IMG/VR virus record: IMGVR_UViG_3300025000_000053
Coordinates: 185,854 to 249,853 of that record
Direction: 5' to 3' (one strand)
DNA: 64,000 nt
DNA from: a virus
This document shows, piece after piece, positions 16,622-37,436 of the stretch (positions are counted from its first letter, which is position 1; each line of letters opens with the position of its first letter). A program made the translations under genes and the position numbers. The notes below the pieces were generated by a model. It ran no database searches. It was not told the DNA's origin and worked only from the letters and a program-made list of their open reading frames with translations.

Positions 16622-17707
16622 ATGGTTATTTTTGGACATAAGAGAACTAATGATGTAAATGTCGATTTTGATATTTCAAAATATGACCACATCCAACCTA
16701 CTACTGAAGCATTGGAACAAATCATAACAGAATCAGCTAAAGATTCTTATAAAATCCGTGCAAGTATATATATTTCGGATGTACTGATGGAGCAAGCTGT
16801 ACTGACTGAATCAGCTGATCCTCAAGTTCTTCTTGAGGTATTTGGTAAAGGTTTCTTTACCAAAATAAAAGACATGTTCGTAAGAATGTGGAATGCTATA
16901 AAAGCTTTCTTTGAAAAAATGAAAAGACAACTTATTTTGTTTTTCTCTTCCGGTAAAACTTTTGTAGAAAAGTTTGAAAATGAATTACGCAGTAAGAATG
17001 CAAAAGATTATAAGTACAAATCATTTAAATATACTCCGAGTAAAGGTGATAGTTATGGTAGTAAAGTACTTGATGCAATTAATTCAACTGAAAATGAATA
17101 TGAAAATAAACTTAGTAGTTTAGATGTAAGAGACGTTTCTAAACACAAGAGTGCAATGGATTCTAAAAAAGATAATATGAAGGATTCATATGATACCGGT
17201 GAGGAAAAAGAAGGTATATTTAAAAGTTTAAATGTTGATTCTATTTCTGAATTACAGGAAGAATCATATAAAGAGTACAGGAATGGTTCAAAAGAAAAAG
17301 AAGAATTTAAAGATTTTGAAAACAACAGTAAAGAAGACATGATTAAATTCATTAAAGACAAGGATAAAAATATAACTGACCTTGATAGATATCAGAAAGA
17401 TTTGGATTCTCATTTCAGTAAAGTAATTAAGGCTATTGAAGCCGCCGGAAGTAAGTATAAGAATGAGGAATTATCTAAGGTATCACCTTATGTTTCTCAT
17501 AGCGTTGAAATGTTGAGATTCTGTATGTCGATTCGTTCAGCATTAGTTAAGATGCATATCGATTATATAAAAGATGCAGCCAGTGATTTCGAATCTATTT
17601 TAAAAGGTTTTTTAAGATTTAAAGTAGTTAAAGAAAGTTTTGAAGGTAATTATGATGATGATAAAGGTATTACCAATATCTTTGAAGCAGCAATGAAATT
17701 AGTTTAA
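16622..17707 (+). CDS. Tandem paralogue 2 of 4
   Basis: 361 residues with AAAGGGGG before the start. It follows the same plan as its upstream neighbour: an acidic N-terminus with ITE37|S, LTE63|S and LLE72|V, then KIKDMFVRMWNAIKAFF, SSGKTFVEKFENELR and YKYKSFKYT, then a long charged helical region. The end (VVKESF and IFEAAMKLV) holds another VKES-type site. It is followed by a strong hairpin. Probably co-expressed with paralogue 1 and also packaged; no biochemical function is evident. Confidence 0.65.
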   Translation: MVIFGHKRTNDVNVDFDISKYDHIQPTTEALEQIITESAKDSYKIRASIYISDVLMEQAVLTESADPQVLLEVFGKGFFTKIKDMFVRMWNAIKAFFEKMKRQLILFFSSGKTFVEKFENELRSKNAKDYKYKSFKYTPSKGDSYGSKVLDAINSTENEYENKLSSLDVRDVSKHKSAMDSKKDNMKDSYDTGEEKEGIFKSLNVDSISELQEESYKEYRNGSKEKEEFKDFENNSKEDMIKFIKDKDKNITDLDRYQKDLDSHFSKVIKAIEAAGSKYKNEELSKVSPYVSHSVEMLRFCMSIRSALVKMHIDYIKDAASDFESILKGFLRFKVVKESFEGNYDDDKGITNIFEAAMKLV

Positions 17708-31102: not shown

Positions 31103-31536
31103 TTATTCAGGTTTAATTTTATTAAATAAATTTAAAGCATCTTTCAATAACAAAAGTTGTTTTTTTATAAAATCACTAACATTTTCTTTATTAGACATAT
31201 CTATATATTCGTCTATATTTTCTTTAGTTATTTTTAAATCATCTTCTAATACAAATAAATTATTCGTATTAATTAAAATAAATAAATCTAATGCAGATAA
31301 TAAGTTATGATAAATTAAACTATACGCAAATTCATCCTTTATTTGTTCATCAACTTCATTAAAACTTTCAACTTCATCAATAATACTTTGAAACATTGAG
31401 AAAAATATTCCATCTCTTGCACCTGCAAAATCATTATATACTTCACATAATTTATTATGCTTTAAAATAAATGTTTTTATTTTATTAAATTCATCCTTTT
31501 TTCTTTCAGTTTCTTATTTAAATCAATGATATTCAA
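31103..31536 (-). pseudogene. Frameshifted member of a three-gene paralogous family
   Basis: From a TTG at 31536 behind AGGAGG the frame reads NIIDLNKKLKEK and then stops, but shifting by one base in the AAAAAA run at 31495-31500 continues into DEFNKIKTFILKHNKLCEVYNDFAGARDG and on into the 97-residue frame (FQSIIDEVESFNEVDEQ ... NIDEYIDMSNKENV). The joined product matches the intact paralogue at 31553 (YNDFAGARD against LVNDARDY; NIDEYI in both). One lost A, or a -1 shift at A-AAA-AGG, explains it. Confidence 0.55.
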
Positions 31537-31552
31537 TATAAATAAACCTCCT

Positions 31553-32026
31553 TTAACTAATATTATTTAATAAATCATCATAGATAATCATAATGTTTTT
31601 TAAATGTTTTACCTGTTCTAATAAAACTTTATTTTCTTCAATTTTTTCTTTAGTAATATTTTTCTCTAAAATTTTTATATATTCATCTATATTGTCTTTA
31701 TTTAATTCACAATTTCTTAAAATACATTCAACATTCATATCAATAAAAAGCTTTAATGCGCCTAACAAATTTTTGTAAATTAATCCATAGACAAATGAAT
31801 CCATAAATAAAGGAATATTTTCTTTATCTGAAAATGTTTCACACTCTTTTACTATATCAGGAATAAAACCATAAAAAGAATAATCCCTAGCATCATTAAC
31901 TAAATTAAAACCTGGTAATAAGAAATCATATTTATTAAAAAAGTCAAATACTATTTGACCTTTTTCTTCAATTTGCTTATCTCTCAACTTATCATTTAAA
32001 TCTAGTAACTTACCATATTTACTCAA
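31553..32026 (-). CDS. Helical paralogue family member, 157 residues
   Basis: TTG start at 32026 preceded by AGGTGAT. A helical acidic protein: KIVFDFF-like segment, FNLVNDARDYSFYGFIPDIV, then SFVYGLIYKNLLGALKLFID and KDNIDEYIKILEKN. The same order (a VNDA/VNAED block, a YGLL(T/I)Y block, a coiled C-terminus) appears in 31103-31536 and 32278-32742. Function unknown; three adjacent copies suggest local duplication. Confidence 0.6.
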   Translation of the reverse strand: MSKYGKLLDLNDKLRDKQIEEKGQIVFDFFNKYDFLLPGFNLVNDARDYSFYGFIPDIVKECETFSDKENIPLFMDSFVYGLIYKNLLGALKLFIDMNVECILRNCELNKDNIDEYIKILEKNITKEKIEENKVLLEQVKHLKNIMIIYDDLLNNIS

Positions 32027-32035
32027 CTATATCAC

Positions 32036-32242
32036 CTATCCTTTTTTTAAAATTATTTTTTTATTTTCAATTATAACAGTATGTCCGTCAATTTCATTAA
32101 TTTCTTCAATAGATTCTATTTCTTCTAGAAATGAAAGAAGTTCCTTTTCTACTTTTTCTTTAGCTTCATTTTCATTACTAGCTATAATTAAAAAACATGT
32201 TCTATCACCAAAATACATAGTATAAATTTTGAATAATTTCAT
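32036..32242 (-). CDS. Hypothetical protein, 68 residues
   Basis: ATG after GGAGATG. Alpha/beta with an N-terminal strand (MKLFKIYTMYFGDRTCFLII) and a Glu-rich helix (NEAKEKVEKELLSFLEEIESIEEI). It is inserted between two paralogues of the family at 31103-32742. No function recognised. Confidence 0.6.
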   Translation of the reverse strand: MKLFKIYTMYFGDRTCFLIIASNENEAKEKVEKELLSFLEEIESIEEINEIDGHTVIIENKKIILKKG

Positions 32243-32831: not shown

Positions 32832-35800
32832 TCATTTTTTAATATTTAGACAAAATAATATATATGAATTTAAATCTAAACCATAATCGATTTCATTAGG
32901 TACAGCACTCCATACTAATAATGGATATTTTTTATTCGATTCTATTTTAGAATGTATACTCTCAATATATTGTTTCAGATGTATTAAAGAATTAAAAGGA
33001 CCATGAATTCCTAATTGTTCACCCCAAGAAGTTTCAATCCAATAAATCTTTTCATTTTTAATATAATAACATAAAGTATGATTAAAACCACCAGTATTTT
33101 CTTTTTCATTATATTCAATAAAGAATAAACAATTAGCTTTATATATCTTATTATTATTAAATAAATTACGAATAAAAATTGCTTGTTCATGTGATGAGCC
33201 ATTTTGAGATTCAATAAGTTCATCATCATTTTTTAATATAGTAAAGTCAGAATTCTTAATATTATTTCTCATAAAATTATATACATCTTCATCACCATTA
33301 AAATTAGGTAAATCAGTTAGATATAATTCAGTAACAATATTACTTTCATATTGCTTTATTATTGTTAATGTATTTTTATCAACTGCATCTTTATTATAAT
33401 TCTCTAATTTACCCCTAGTTACAAAATGAGTTTTTTTATGTTTAGCAAAGTCATACGGTTTATATAAACTAGGATGTTTATCAATCATACCATTATTAGA
33501 AGCCTTCAATATTTCAGCTACAAATTGACTACAAAAATATTCATTTTGTCTATCAGTTTCTTTACCAATAGAAATATTAAATAATCCAATAAAACTAAAT
33601 TTTAATTTGTCTTTTTTCTTTTTAAAATCTTCTAATCTATTTATCATTAATTCTTTTTGTTCTTTAGTAACAAATAATACATAGAGTGAATAAATTGTAT
33701 CTTTAGTAACATCTTTAAGTAAACCATCTTTTATATCTTCATTAATAAATGTCATATTGGAATCTTTAAATTTTCTACCAAAACTATACATATCATTCAT
33801 ACTACTATCAAAAGAGATACTTACATGACTATATACATCACCAGTAACAAATTTAATTACTTTAGCCATATTAGTACTAGTGAAAGTTAATAGAATAAAT
33901 ACTGGATATAAATTATTATTATCGTAAGATTCCTTAATAATTTCCCCTATTCTTGCCTTATAATTAATAGTTAATTCTTCACCTTTATTGATATTTTTTA
34001 TACTATAAAGATGATATTTACCATTATCATTAACTATTTTTAAATTAGGAGTATCTGAATGATTAAAATAATTATCAAAATTATTAATATCATCTTTTTT
34101 TATTGAAGTTTCACCTATTATATTATTCATATTAATATCTTTTTTAACAAATGAACCTTTAGCTAATTTACTAGTTATTATAAAAGATTCCTTAACAAAA
34201 TCTCTTTCACCTTCAAAATCAAATTGTTTATAATCTATAGTTAGTTCTTCACCTTTTTTAATTTTATTTTTAGATTTATAAAAATAAACTTTCTTTCCAT
34301 TTCTAATAGTTTGAACTAATACTAAATTAGGATTATTTGAATGATTAACAAATTGACCCGCTTTAGTTCGTTTATAATCTTTATCCGGATTATCAGTATC
34401 ATTAACTTTCTTTATAGCTAATAATTTAGTATTAGAATCAATATTTTTATTTGCAAATATACCTTTACCTGATATTTTTGAATCTTTAACATTATAGTAT
34501 GTTTCATTTATATGAATTAATTTAACACCTGTTGTATAATTATGATTTATTTTAATACCATTTTTATTTATATAGTTCATAAATTCAATAGTAGTTAAAT
34601 TATATTTATCAATTTTATATTCATATATACTAAATTTAAAAGACTCACCTTCATCTTCAAACATATTTTTCAATATAAAGTTAAATATATCTTTTAAAGA
34701 ATTTGATTCATATATCCCTTGAATTTTTTTATATGATGATTCAAAATAATAAAATTTATTATTATTTATATAAACTAAAAAAGTATGTGTTGAAGAATTT
34801 TTATTTTTTAATTCAATATAATAAGTTTTAAATTTAAAATTGAATTTTTTATTAAATATATTTCTTTCAAATTCAGTATAATCCCAACATACACCAACCT
34901 TATATTTATAAAAATCCTTTGGAGAAATAGTTTTGTATAAATTAAAAAATTCATCACCTGATAAATTATCAGCTAATATTTTTTTATCTTTAGTTAATAT
35001 ACCATATTTAAAATCATTAAGGATTTTATTTAATTCTAAAGGATTATTTATTTTAGAGATTTCATCTATATATGATTCCTTTAAAACATCTTCTATTCCA
35101 GCTTCTTTTTCCATTTTAACCAACCTAGTATAATAATCAGGGATTTCATCTAAATGGTCTTTAGCTATCATTCTAGCTTTATCTAAATTTTTAGTATGTT
35201 CCTGTTCAATTTCTATACCAATTTTTAATTGTTCAGAATCATAATCAGAATCTGGTCTTATATCATAACTAAGGTCAATAGCTTTTTCATCTTTATTTTC
35301 TTCTATAAAAGATTCTTTAATAAATTCATCAAGAGATTTAATAAACCTTATATGAGTTTTATTAACCATATCACTTTTTTGTTCTTTAAATCCATATTTT
35401 TTAGCTAATTTGATAGATATATTATTAGTCTTTTTTATATTTAGAACAATTGATGTTATATCTCTTTTAGATCGATGGCAGAATTGAATACCTTCATTCA
35501 TTAAAGCATGAGAAATACCTTTTCCACGAAATTCTTCTTTAATAAATATATTAAAGAAAGCATACCCTCTTTTAACCTTTACTTCAATAAATCCAGCATT
35601 TTTATTACCAACTTTATAAATATATCTAAAAGCTACTTTATTATAAAATTCCCTTGGTCCTAATTTTTCATTATTATCATTATCTCCTAATATTCTTAAT
35701 GCACGATGATATTCAGCTTCTATTATAATATCAACATTATTATAACTTTCAGATATTAAATACTCAATTTCTTTATTTTTTAAAAAATTTATCCACTCAT

Positions 35801-37367
35801 CTTCAACTTGTTCAATTTTTAATCCAAATATATTAAAGAAATATTTCTTCATTGTATTTAAAGAATTCATTTTTGGTAAACTATCAATAAATTCTTTTAT
35901 TTTTTTTATTAAAATTAGATTTAACTGTCCTTGACCAAGAAGATATGTTATAAATGAACCAGCTATAGAATATGAAACAATAGTTTGTAATTTACTAAAT
36001 TCATTATTATCATAAATAATATTTTCGAGTTTACTAAATCCTCGTTCCATAATTAATTTAGCATTATCGTGAATGGAATATTTTCCAAACCACCCTATAT
36101 CATTTTTATATTTTTCATCTAAAAATCTCGGCCATGAATAATACATAGCTATTCCCTCAGTCCAAAACATTCCAGAAATTTTAAACCCTTTCCAAATATT
36201 TTCTATTCCTGATATATTAAACATAGTTACAATATGTGCAACTTCATGAGTATCAGATGAATGAATACTTTGTACTACAAGTTCATGGGGAAATGCTCTA
36301 CCCTTACCTTTCATTCCAGTAAGTTGAATATAATTATGTTCTGGTAATTTGTAATATGTTATTTTTTTCCCAATAGGAAAATTCCAATTTGATGCCACTA
36401 TAGACATAAAGTTTTCTAATCGTTTAATAGCTTTTTTAATTTCATAAAAGTTTTCATCTTTTGAATATTTATATATAAAATGTTTTGATTCTTCAGTATC
36501 CCATTCGAATATTGGGTGAATGATTATATCTTTTTGTTTATACAAACTTTTTTCAGTTAATACTTCCGTATTATTATTAATATCATTAAAAGATTCCATT
36601 AAAACAAATATGGGTCTGTTATCTTCACCATTAGATTCAATATATCTATCTTTAGCTTGTTTTAAAAATTCAAATATAGAATCATAATTCTTATTAGTAA
36701 CTTTTATATAGCTAAAAGTTGTTTGACTCATTAATACCTTATCCTTTAATCTTTCTTTAACTTTATCTACTGCTTGAATTTTACCATGTTTATTTTCATT
36801 ATCCCCACCATCTTTAACCTCTATTTCTAATCCTAAAGAAGCTATAAATGCATCTGGTATATAAAATTTTTCTTCACCTTCATATTCATAATAATAAACA
36901 TGAGGTGATGGTGTCATTACATCGTCTGAATCAAATTGTAAAAATATATCTAAGAATTTTAATAAATCTAATTCATATGAACCAGTATATGTTTTTTTAG
37001 CTCCATCTGACCATATATACTCACCTGAAATTTTTCTATTAGCTAACATTTTCTTTTGTTGTTCAGGGTTACTTAATAAATGAATTTTACCATATTTACC
37101 AATCATTCTTTTTTTAAATATTTCCCTATATATATCTTTACATTTAGGATTTTCACAAAATCTTTTATACTTATTAGTTACATTACACCATTTAGTAGGT
37201 TTTTTACAAATAATACATCTACCTTTATCTTTACCTGTTTTTAAAAAATAAAAATATTGTGATGACGTAAAATTTTTAGGTATCAGTCCATTATGTTCAT
37301 CTTCAAGATGTTGATATAAATCTTCAATATGATTAAATTTATCATTACATATAGTACATTTAATCAA
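32832..37367 (-). CDS. Giant multidomain protein: nuclease, zinc peptidase, GNAT, transglutaminase-like, SET and C92-like domains; candidate packaged polyprotein
   Basis: Numbering is from a GTG at 37379 (1515 residues); the TTG at 37367 has better spacing to GAGAGGG. In order: zinc finger (CTICNDKF, 8-30) and Cys cluster; PD-(D/E)xK nuclease (PD 175-176, EVK 187-189); gluzincin peptidase (HEVAH 378-382, WTEG Glu408); GNAT (RGKG 618-621); DUF5661-like (GIEIEQEHT near 721); transglutaminase-like (Cys831, His865, Glu880); SET (GKGIFA 971, NHSNNPN 1012, GEELTIDY 1043); short second SET (NHSDTPN 1106, GEELTINY 1133); C92/YiiX-like amidase (His1185, Cys1283); a degenerate transglutaminase-like domain with Ser1396 in the Cys place. 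VLMESF, LISESY, FIKESF, VLKESY, FVKESF and IIKESY stand at the borders (Glu262, 544, 689, 768, 1064, 1150), like prohead protease sites. Confidence 0.75.
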   Translation of the reverse strand: MIKCTICNDKFNHIEDLYQHLEDEHNGLIPKNFTSSQYFYFLKTGKDKGRCIICKKPTKWCNVTNKYKRFCENPKCKDIYREIFKKRMIGKYGKIHLLSNPEQQKKMLANRKISGEYIWSDGAKKTYTGSYELDLLKFLDIFLQFDSDDVMTPSPHVYYYEYEGEEKFYIPDAFIASLGLEIEVKDGGDNENKHGKIQAVDKVKERLKDKVLMSQTTFSYIKVTNKNYDSIFEFLKQAKDRYIESNGEDNRPIFVLMESFNDINNNTEVLTEKSLYKQKDIIIHPIFEWDTEESKHFIYKYSKDENFYEIKKAIKRLENFMSIVASNWNFPIGKKITYYKLPEHNYIQLTGMKGKGRAFPHELVVQSIHSSDTHEVAHIVTMFNISGIENIWKGFKISGMFWTEGIAMYYSWPRFLDEKYKNDIGWFGKYSIHDNAKLIMERGFSKLENIIYDNNEFSKLQTIVSYSIAGSFITYLLGQGQLNLILIKKIKEFIDSLPKMNSLNTMKKYFFNIFGLKIEQVEDEWINFLKNKEIEYLISESYNNVDIIIEAEYHRALRILGDNDNNEKLGPREFYNKVAFRYIYKVGNKNAGFIEVKVKRGYAFFNIFIKEEFRGKGISHALMNEGIQFCHRSKRDITSIVLNIKKTNNISIKLAKKYGFKEQKSDMVNKTHIRFIKSLDEFIKESFIEENKDEKAIDLSYDIRPDSDYDSEQLKIGIEIEQEHTKNLDKARMIAKDHLDEIPDYYTRLVKMEKEAGIEDVLKESYIDEISKINNPLELNKILNDFKYGILTKDKKILADNLSGDEFFNLYKTISPKDFYKYKVGVCWDYTEFERNIFNKKFNFKFKTYYIELKNKNSSTHTFLVYINNNKFYYFESSYKKIQGIYESNSLKDIFNFILKNMFEDEGESFKFSIYEYKIDKYNLTTIEFMNYINKNGIKINHNYTTGVKLIHINETYYNVKDSKISGKGIFANKNIDSNTKLLAIKKVNDTDNPDKDYKRTKAGQFVNHSNNPNLVLVQTIRNGKKVYFYKSKNKIKKGEELTIDYKQFDFEGERDFVKESFIITSKLAKGSFVKKDINMNNIIGETSIKKDDINNFDNYFNHSDTPNLKIVNDNGKYHLYSIKNINKGEELTINYKARIGEIIKESYDNNNLYPVFILLTFTSTNMAKVIKFVTGDVYSHVSISFDSSMNDMYSFGRKFKDSNMTFINEDIKDGLLKDVTKDTIYSLYVLFVTKEQKELMINRLEDFKKKKDKLKFSFIGLFNISIGKETDRQNEYFCSQFVAEILKASNNGMIDKHPSLYKPYDFAKHKKTHFVTRGKLENYNKDAVDKNTLTIIKQYESNIVTELYLTDLPNFNGDEDVYNFMRNNIKNSDFTILKNDDELIESQNGSSHEQAIFIRNLFNNNKIYKANCLFFIEYNEKENTGGFNHTLCYYIKNEKIYWIETSWGEQLGIHGPFNSLIHLKQYIESIHSKIESNKKYPLLVWSAVPNEIDYGLDLNSYILFCLNIKK

Positions 37368-37436
37368 ATTAAAACACACCCTCTCATTATTCTATTATTT
37401 AAATGTTAATTATATATAAAAGATATAACTAAATAA

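Follow-up and report, generated by a model that had tools for sequence, protein, structure and literature searches.

A putative effector polyprotein with prohead-protease-type sites between its domains in an AR9-like jumbo phage

The stretch of DNA analyzed here, referred to as the window, consists of 64,000 nucleotides (nt) and is the final 64 kb of a 249,853-base IMG/VR phage record (IMGVR_UViG_3300025000_000053, positions 185,854 to 249,853). On its minus strand lies an open reading frame (ORF) of 1515 amino acids (aa), whose full-length product of 175 kDa joins a phage nuclease to a string of unrelated enzyme-like modules, with a short repeated motif at most of the borders between them. 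This motif matches the maturation site of the major capsid protein (MCP) in the same group of phages, and the product, called here the polyprotein, is probably packaged cargo that is cut during head maturation. Residue numbers count from the GTG at 37379. The TTG at 37367 is probably the real start, because it is preceded by a gagaggg Shine-Dalgarno sequence and, 40 nt upstream, by a motif of the late promoter type. The locus contains the following features:

32832..37379, minus strand: putative effector polyprotein ORF, 1515 aa; GTG 37379, stop 32832, likelier start TTG 37367
37396..37407, minus strand: AR9-type late promoter motif AACA-N6-TA (AACATTTAAATA), 40 nt before the TTG start
36594..37379, minus strand: module 1, zinc finger plus PD-(D/E)XK-like endonuclease (aa 1-262); phrog_15137, E 1.4e-62
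35748..36593, minus strand: module 2, HEVAH zinc-peptidase-like (aa 263-544); HEVAH and a downstream Glu only
35313..35747, minus strand: module 3, GNAT acetyltransferase (aa 545-689); Pfam Acetyltransf_10, E 2.6e-9
35076..35312, minus strand: module 4, DUF5661 (aa 690-768); Pfam, E 4.4e-13
34503..35075, minus strand: module 5, transglutaminase-like cysteine enzyme (aa 769-959); conserved Cys/His/Glu, DUF553 at E 0.00094
34188..34502, minus strand: module 6, SET domain with NHSNNPN and GEELTIDY (aa 960-1064); Pfam SET in two stretches, E 2.6e-19; phrog_28741, E 8e-20
33930..34187, minus strand: module 7, mini-SET with NHSDTPN and GEELTINY (aa 1065-1150); domain search
33327..33929, minus strand: module 8, permuted papain-fold enzyme of C92-like type (aa 1151-1351); subthreshold Pfam C92 match, E 0.0011
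32832..33326, minus strand: module 9, second transglutaminase-like module (aa 1352-1515); Cys/His/Glu pattern only

The chain thus comprises about nine modules. By their sequence matches, the assignments of the nuclease, the GNAT, DUF5661 and the two SET domains are solid. Module 1 is modelled by AlphaFold with a pLDDT mostly around 90 up to residue 250, and the best Foldseek matches of module 3 are GNATs (E ~1e-5); the first AlphaFold model is good for these two domains only. Module 2 found no family match in profile searches and a zinc-peptidase scan returned the same phage only; it is missing from the related loci L014/L016, L035 and L036. The His and Cys of module 8 are invariant in its relatives. 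Module 9, also without a family match in profile searches, is conserved in L014 and L016. When the alignments of C92 and of module 9 were searched against PDB profiles, nothing matched. An earlier note on this DNA had predicted about seven mature effectors, ending with the C92-like domain and starting from coordinate 37367. That coordinate does fall on a TTG codon, the probable start, but the residue numbers of the note count from 37379. From its domain list, the five assignments named above hold well, while C92 stays below threshold by sequence and the zinc peptidase is a motif-only call. Its transglutaminase/SET stretch contains both folds, but as two modules joined at INE/TYY (a slash marks the predicted cut); together with the extra C-terminal module found after IVTE/LY, this raises the count to about nine.

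Two side observations concern these modules. The SET domain of module 6 has a weak match to the NCBIfam model for AnkI/LegAS4, a Legionella effector (E 1.9e-5, falling far short of the cut-off of that model); the resemblance is confined to the SET domain. In a near-identical contig from metagenome 3300025010 (L013:3971-8508), the polyprotein is split into two ORFs by a frameshift near aa 455, within the zinc-peptidase module, either natural or a sequencing error.

The strict form of the repeated motif, [VLIFM][LIVMF]xES[FY], occurs six times in the polyprotein, at E262, E544, E689, E768, E1064 and E1150. Shuffling the polyprotein gives an expectation of 0.08 copies, and none of 2000 shuffles reached six. 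Its density amounts to 3.96 per 1000 aa, against 0.029 (two copies) in the other ORFs of the phage of at least 100 aa. All six copies are located in linkers, 9-20 residues from the nearest edge of a domain core, the cores having been delimited for the most part from independent evidence, namely PHROG/Pfam envelopes and blocks defined by homologues. Since linkers make up 20% of the polyprotein, this placement would arise by chance with a probability of ~7e-5. Two further borders carry weaker forms of the site, at E959 and E1351. The codons of the sites vary (GAA AGT TAT, GAA TCT TTT, GAA TCA TAT), which places the conservation at the protein level; an origin of the repeats in DNA-level recombination homology was rejected for this reason. 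The eight sites, with their counterparts in the closest homologues, L035 (1075 aa) and L036 (1482 aa), are as follows:

36588..36605, minus strand: border site VLME/SF (E262); VLME/SY in L035 and L036
35742..35759, minus strand: border site LISE/SY (E544); strict motif, in linker
35307..35324, minus strand: border site FIKE/SF (E689); FIKE/SF in L035, FVKE/SF in L036
35070..35087, minus strand: border site VLKE/SY (E768); at swapped-module borders, ISKE/SFF in L036 and PCNE/GFF in L035
34497..34514, minus strand: weaker border site INE/TYY (E959); YISE/TYY in L035 and L036
34182..34199, minus strand: border site FVKE/SF (E1064); FVKE/SY in L035, FVKE/SSF in L036
33924..33941, minus strand: border site IIKE/SY (E1150); most phage relatives have a site before the C92 domain
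33321..33338, minus strand: weaker border site IVTE/LY (E1351); between the C92-like and the C-terminal module

A candidate enzyme for these sites is encoded elsewhere in the genome, at genome positions 31369-32223. It is a prohead protease of family Peptidase_S77 (Pfam PF03420, 34.1 bits versus a cut-off of 27), which also matches phrog_3014, the PHROG "head maturation protease". If the borders are sites of this protease, the capsid protein of the phage group should mature at the same type of site, and this expectation was examined. For the major head protein of phiR1-37 (g135), the GenBank record notes a "mature N-terminus at Ser87", within MVMLQE/SMIGG; this note was taken from GenBank and not from the underlying paper. 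At the aligned position, the capsid protein of the present phage reads LELIKE/SSDIG. Equivalent sites are found in AR9 (AILQE/SV), S6 (EILME/SS) and Machias (EILLE/SS), as well as in the loci L038 (EIVRE/SS), L040 (EILRE/SS), L042 (EMLTE/SG), L061 (ELLRE/SG) and L103 (DMVTE/SM), while a few relatives deviate, for example EMVRE/GA in L045 and EIIYE/NYG in L058. Among relatives that carry polyproteins, the capsid sites include LIKE/S, IVRE/S, ILRE/S, MLTE/S and LLRE/S. Borders and capsid maturation site agree from P4 to P1', so that the sites of the polyprotein fit the capsid-protein site of the group, as read from the annotated phiR1-37 site and the alignment. Across the genome, the ORFs with at least two hhxES sites (h, hydrophobic) are the polyprotein with six, a protein at 16622-17707 of the window with three, and, with two each, the protease itself and the gene that separates the protease gene from the MCP gene. 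The MCP of this phage has one such site. The protein with three sites is the following:

16622..17707, plus strand: protein in an AR9 virion-gene slot, with the sites IITE/SA, VLTE/SA and VVKE/SF

The comparison with homologues shows that modules are exchanged and sites retained. In IMG/VR, 80 loci of the nuclease were found, most of them free-standing (~235-275 aa), and 14 distinct loci with C-terminal cargo were examined. L035 and L036 both lack the zinc peptidase and the first transglutaminase-like module, and in both DUF5661 is followed by a different module; an M23 peptidase has also been added in L036. Nearly every join in them carries a site, swapped modules included (ISKE/SFF, YISE/TYY, NLTE/SY, IVKE/SIG). 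More distant homologues contain NUDIX, HAD, Ham1-like, P-loop kinase, GNAT and C92 modules, with borders of the VTE/S, VIE/S and LTE/G type. Entire modules are therefore gained or lost, with borders of the xE/[STAG] type mostly retained. Summed over 12 divergent tails, hhxES occurs 12 times (3.7 expected) and hhxE[STAG] 28 times (11.6 expected). Among phage C92 modules, 10 of 16 have hxE[STA] within 25 residues upstream, and most of the others show a near miss such as VTE/EA. Phage C92 modules are nearly all found in long ORFs; cellular C92 relatives, in Bacillota, are free-standing proteins of ~180 aa. The use of free-standing relatives as a test of the tag was dropped, the cellular C92 proteins being uninformative in this respect. 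The same layout is also seen in long proteins without the nuclease, namely L156 (phosphoesterase, transglutaminase-like, C92), L162, and L174 (transglutaminase-like, GNAT and others), whose domain names were read from sequence motifs.

With these results, several proposals of the earlier note are borne out: the six ES[FY] motifs are present at the glutamates it listed and all lie between domains, a prohead protease above the Pfam cut-off is encoded elsewhere in the genome, and the motif is kept at the borders of homologues despite their different modules. Its appeal to a T4 gp21-type cut after Glu needs correction; the capsid protein of the group matures at a site of the same kind as the borders, and the specificity is better read from the phage's own group than from T4.

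Sequence comparison places this phage in the AR9/PBS1/phiR1-37 group of phiKZ-like jumbo phages, because module 1 and many other genes match AR9; orthologues of the major capsid protein, the protease, the split RNA polymerases (RNAP) and the nuclease are all present. By homology, module 1 corresponds to the AR9 "endonuclease fused to N-terminal Zn finger domain" (g233, 46% identity), and free-standing homologues occur in AR9, PBS1, BpSp, Staphylococcus jumbo phages, LPJP1 and phiR1-37. The phiR1-37 relative, g237, is annotated as "phage structural protein", likewise in GenBank and not taken from the underlying paper. The promoter motif points to late expression. The AR9 late promoter consensus is AACA-N6-TA/G, and 41 of the 43 virion proteins in AR9 are among the late genes (PMC5312081). 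In the present phage, the motif precedes 61 of 248 ORFs (25%), compared with 10% of random stretches, and is found 40-54 nt upstream of the MCP, protease and virion RNA polymerase (vRNAP) genes. It is similarly placed before most of the polyprotein orthologues checked and before the AR9 nuclease gene.

We consider it probable, on the evidence of sequence alone, that this ORF, in a jumbo phage of the AR9/PBS1/phiR1-37 type, encodes a polyvalent effector polyprotein that is expressed late, packaged, cut by the S77 prohead protease and delivered with the DNA. A virion endonuclease gene would have gained a C-terminal chain of zinc-peptidase-like, GNAT, DUF5661, transglutaminase-like, two SET, C92-like and second transglutaminase-like modules, most borders carrying the putative site of the phage's own protease, (hydrophobic)(I/L/V)xE/S, and two a weaker form. 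The chain would be made late and brought into the prohead by the nuclease; the S77 protease would cut it at head maturation into roughly nine separate proteins, and these would leave the head together with the DNA and act on the host, by modifying its proteins or by opposing its responses. We infer packaging, cutting, cell entry and the role of each enzyme from the features described above; the SET, GNAT, papain- and transglutaminase-type folds point to the modification of host proteins. With the effectors attached to a single packaged protein, their copy numbers would be equal and one packaging signal would suffice. With somewhat less assurance, we favor the broader view that the capsid-maturation protease doubles as a polyprotein processor and that, in AR9-type jumbo phages, the virion nuclease gene acts as a plug-in port for appended effector genes, each with its cut site, so that a single translation product may yield as many as nine or so injected enzymes, all in the same number.

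Several observations weigh against this interpretation. E689 sits in a short helix in the AlphaFold model, and the second model (C-terminal half) is mostly of low confidence (mean pLDDT 53.8), with mainly the first transglutaminase-like module modelled; its Foldseek matches (CPR-C4, vasohibin, 3kw0) are weak, all with E >0.001. Site enrichment in single proteins is not significant in several other relatives, and the tail of L040 has no hhxE[STAG] site, with a bare ILLERMD before C92. The AR9 nuclease carries no virion-protein annotation, nor does the nuclease appear in the examined part of the virion list of a Staphylococcus relative. N-terminal sites are weakly enriched in AR9 virion proteins (4/33 versus 7/218, p 0.04). 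Such points have to be set beside the other ways in which the chain could be explained. That the protein is packaged and injected whole, the ES[FY] stretches being mere conserved linkers, would agree with the polyvalent proteins transferred unprocessed, such as the N4 virion RNAP, ArdC and TraC1 (PMC5512222), and with the fact that cutting in this phage is read from its sequence. However, the linkers fit the capsid maturation site residue by residue, a specificity not expected of a plain linker, and the motif is concentrated in head-assembly genes, which makes this option rather unlikely.

It is improbable, in turn, that the product is made late, acts in the producing cell and is never packaged, its motif being a remnant of module swapping between genes of packaged proteins. 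The presence of most enzyme modules in the virion has no direct support here, and the free-standing C92 relatives are cellular proteins, both of which suit such a history; on the other side, the late promoter is common to head genes, the site persists over many joins with differing codons, and a relative of module 1 is annotated as a structural protein in phiR1-37. We give the least credence to cutting by the zinc-peptidase module of the chain or by a host enzyme, before packaging or after injection. Metallopeptidase processing has been proposed for polyvalent proteins (PMC5512222) and module 2 has a HEVAH motif, but L035 and L036 keep the sites without module 2, and for most other site-bearing polyproteins the Pfam matches include no recognised peptidase. 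Self-cleavage through HEVAH was accordingly set aside as unlikely, module 2 being missing in relatives that retain the sites.

Other observations made along the way concern related loci and the record itself. At L162:3800-8570, a single phage protein chain of 1583 aa holds two C92 domains together with NUDIX, GNAT and an SNF2-type helicase, and its borders are of the ES type. In the 1251-aa protein of L174:3930-7700, the N-terminal MGIFFNEAN recurs near the C-terminal part as MGLFFSKAQ, which suggests that two proteins sharing an N-terminal tag have been fused. In L164:3960-5390 and L165, C92 is fused in front of a longer protein of unknown function, and the nuclease of the same phage is free-standing. 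Relatives of module 4 occur in cyanophages, where their genes adjoin terminase genes; in S-SRM01 and B23, DUF5661 lies inside a long unannotated protein beside these genes (L021:1354-3168; L022:1114-2244), which also contains other small repeated stretches and is possibly another packaged-cargo protein. Regarding the record, window positions 42400-64000 repeat genome bases 1-21181 in largely the same order, at 80-90% identity, and in this duplicated end GroEL, DNA polymerase and RNAP genes occur for a second time. The likeliest explanation is a circular genome of ~228 kb that the assembly closed by way of another strain.

In the literature searched, which covers few subscription journals, no description was found of a chain of effectors released by a prohead protease at repeated sites, nor of strings of SET, DUF5661 and C92 domains headed by an AR9-type nuclease. 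Effector release by the head protease at repeated sites thus appears to be undescribed. The novelty claimed in the earlier note has to be narrowed, since multidomain injected polyvalent proteins have already been described (PMC5512222), while this particular string was not found among them. If the proposal is correct, this would be, within that literature, the first tailed phage whose injected effectors arise from a polyprotein that the head-maturation protease cuts, as the proteins of RNA viruses do. The ability of phiKZ-like jumbo phages to acquire effectors while needing neither new promoters nor new packaging signals would then be explained. The proposal would also offer a search rule, a capsid-site motif between domains flagging packaged cargo in uncultured phages. 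The SET methyltransferases, the acetyltransferase and the papain- and transglutaminase-like modules are candidate early host-modifying or anti-defence factors. A sharp prediction follows, namely mature N-termini directly after the eight named glutamates.

Among known systems, the closest single protein is the free-standing endonuclease of AR9 (g233) and phiR1-37 (g237), which is the orthologue of module 1 at 36-47% identity and, in AR9, has a motif of the late promoter type upstream of its gene; it differs in its size (~238 aa) and in having no cargo modules. As a whole, the chain resembles the polyvalent proteins of phages and conjugative elements, which contain 2-15 domains and are thought to be injected with the DNA (Iyer et al., 2017; PMC5512222). 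Like them, it is a large multidomain phage polypeptide with several unrelated enzymatic domains, protein- and nucleic-acid-modifying enzymes and strong module shuffling, the combinations differing among relatives. Processing in that group has been described through embedded zincin or assemblin-like peptidases, whereas here the borders carry the putative site of a separate S77 prohead protease. The related giant phages phiKZ and SPN3US (gp175/gp245; PMC10052503, PMC7411985) also have a gp21-like protease that cuts after Glu with Ser preferred at P1', as well as ejected proteins. However, the specificity in SPN3US is AxE/ instead of the [ILV]xE/S seen here, and 13 of its 14 cuts remove N-terminal propeptides and not linkers between enzymes. 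DarA of P1 (PMC12810830) is an anti-restriction head protein cut by the prohead protease Pro; it differs in that a single N-terminal fragment is removed. The internal proteins of T4 and Alt, which is cut at both ends (ITE-6, LTE-619), carry capsid targeting sequences and are packaged and injected effectors trimmed by the S77 protease gp21 after a short motif ending in Glu (PMC9026906, PMC5694885). The polyprotein would work like, but is not, such an internal protein, because the chain opens with the nuclease and its strict sites start only at residue 262, whereas such proteins have a short N-terminal propeptide of 10-20 aa that ends in the cleavage motif; a T4-style N-terminal targeting tag was looked for at the start of the ORF and none was found. 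T4 has one gene per effector and removes terminal propeptides alone, while here one chain would yield many effectors.

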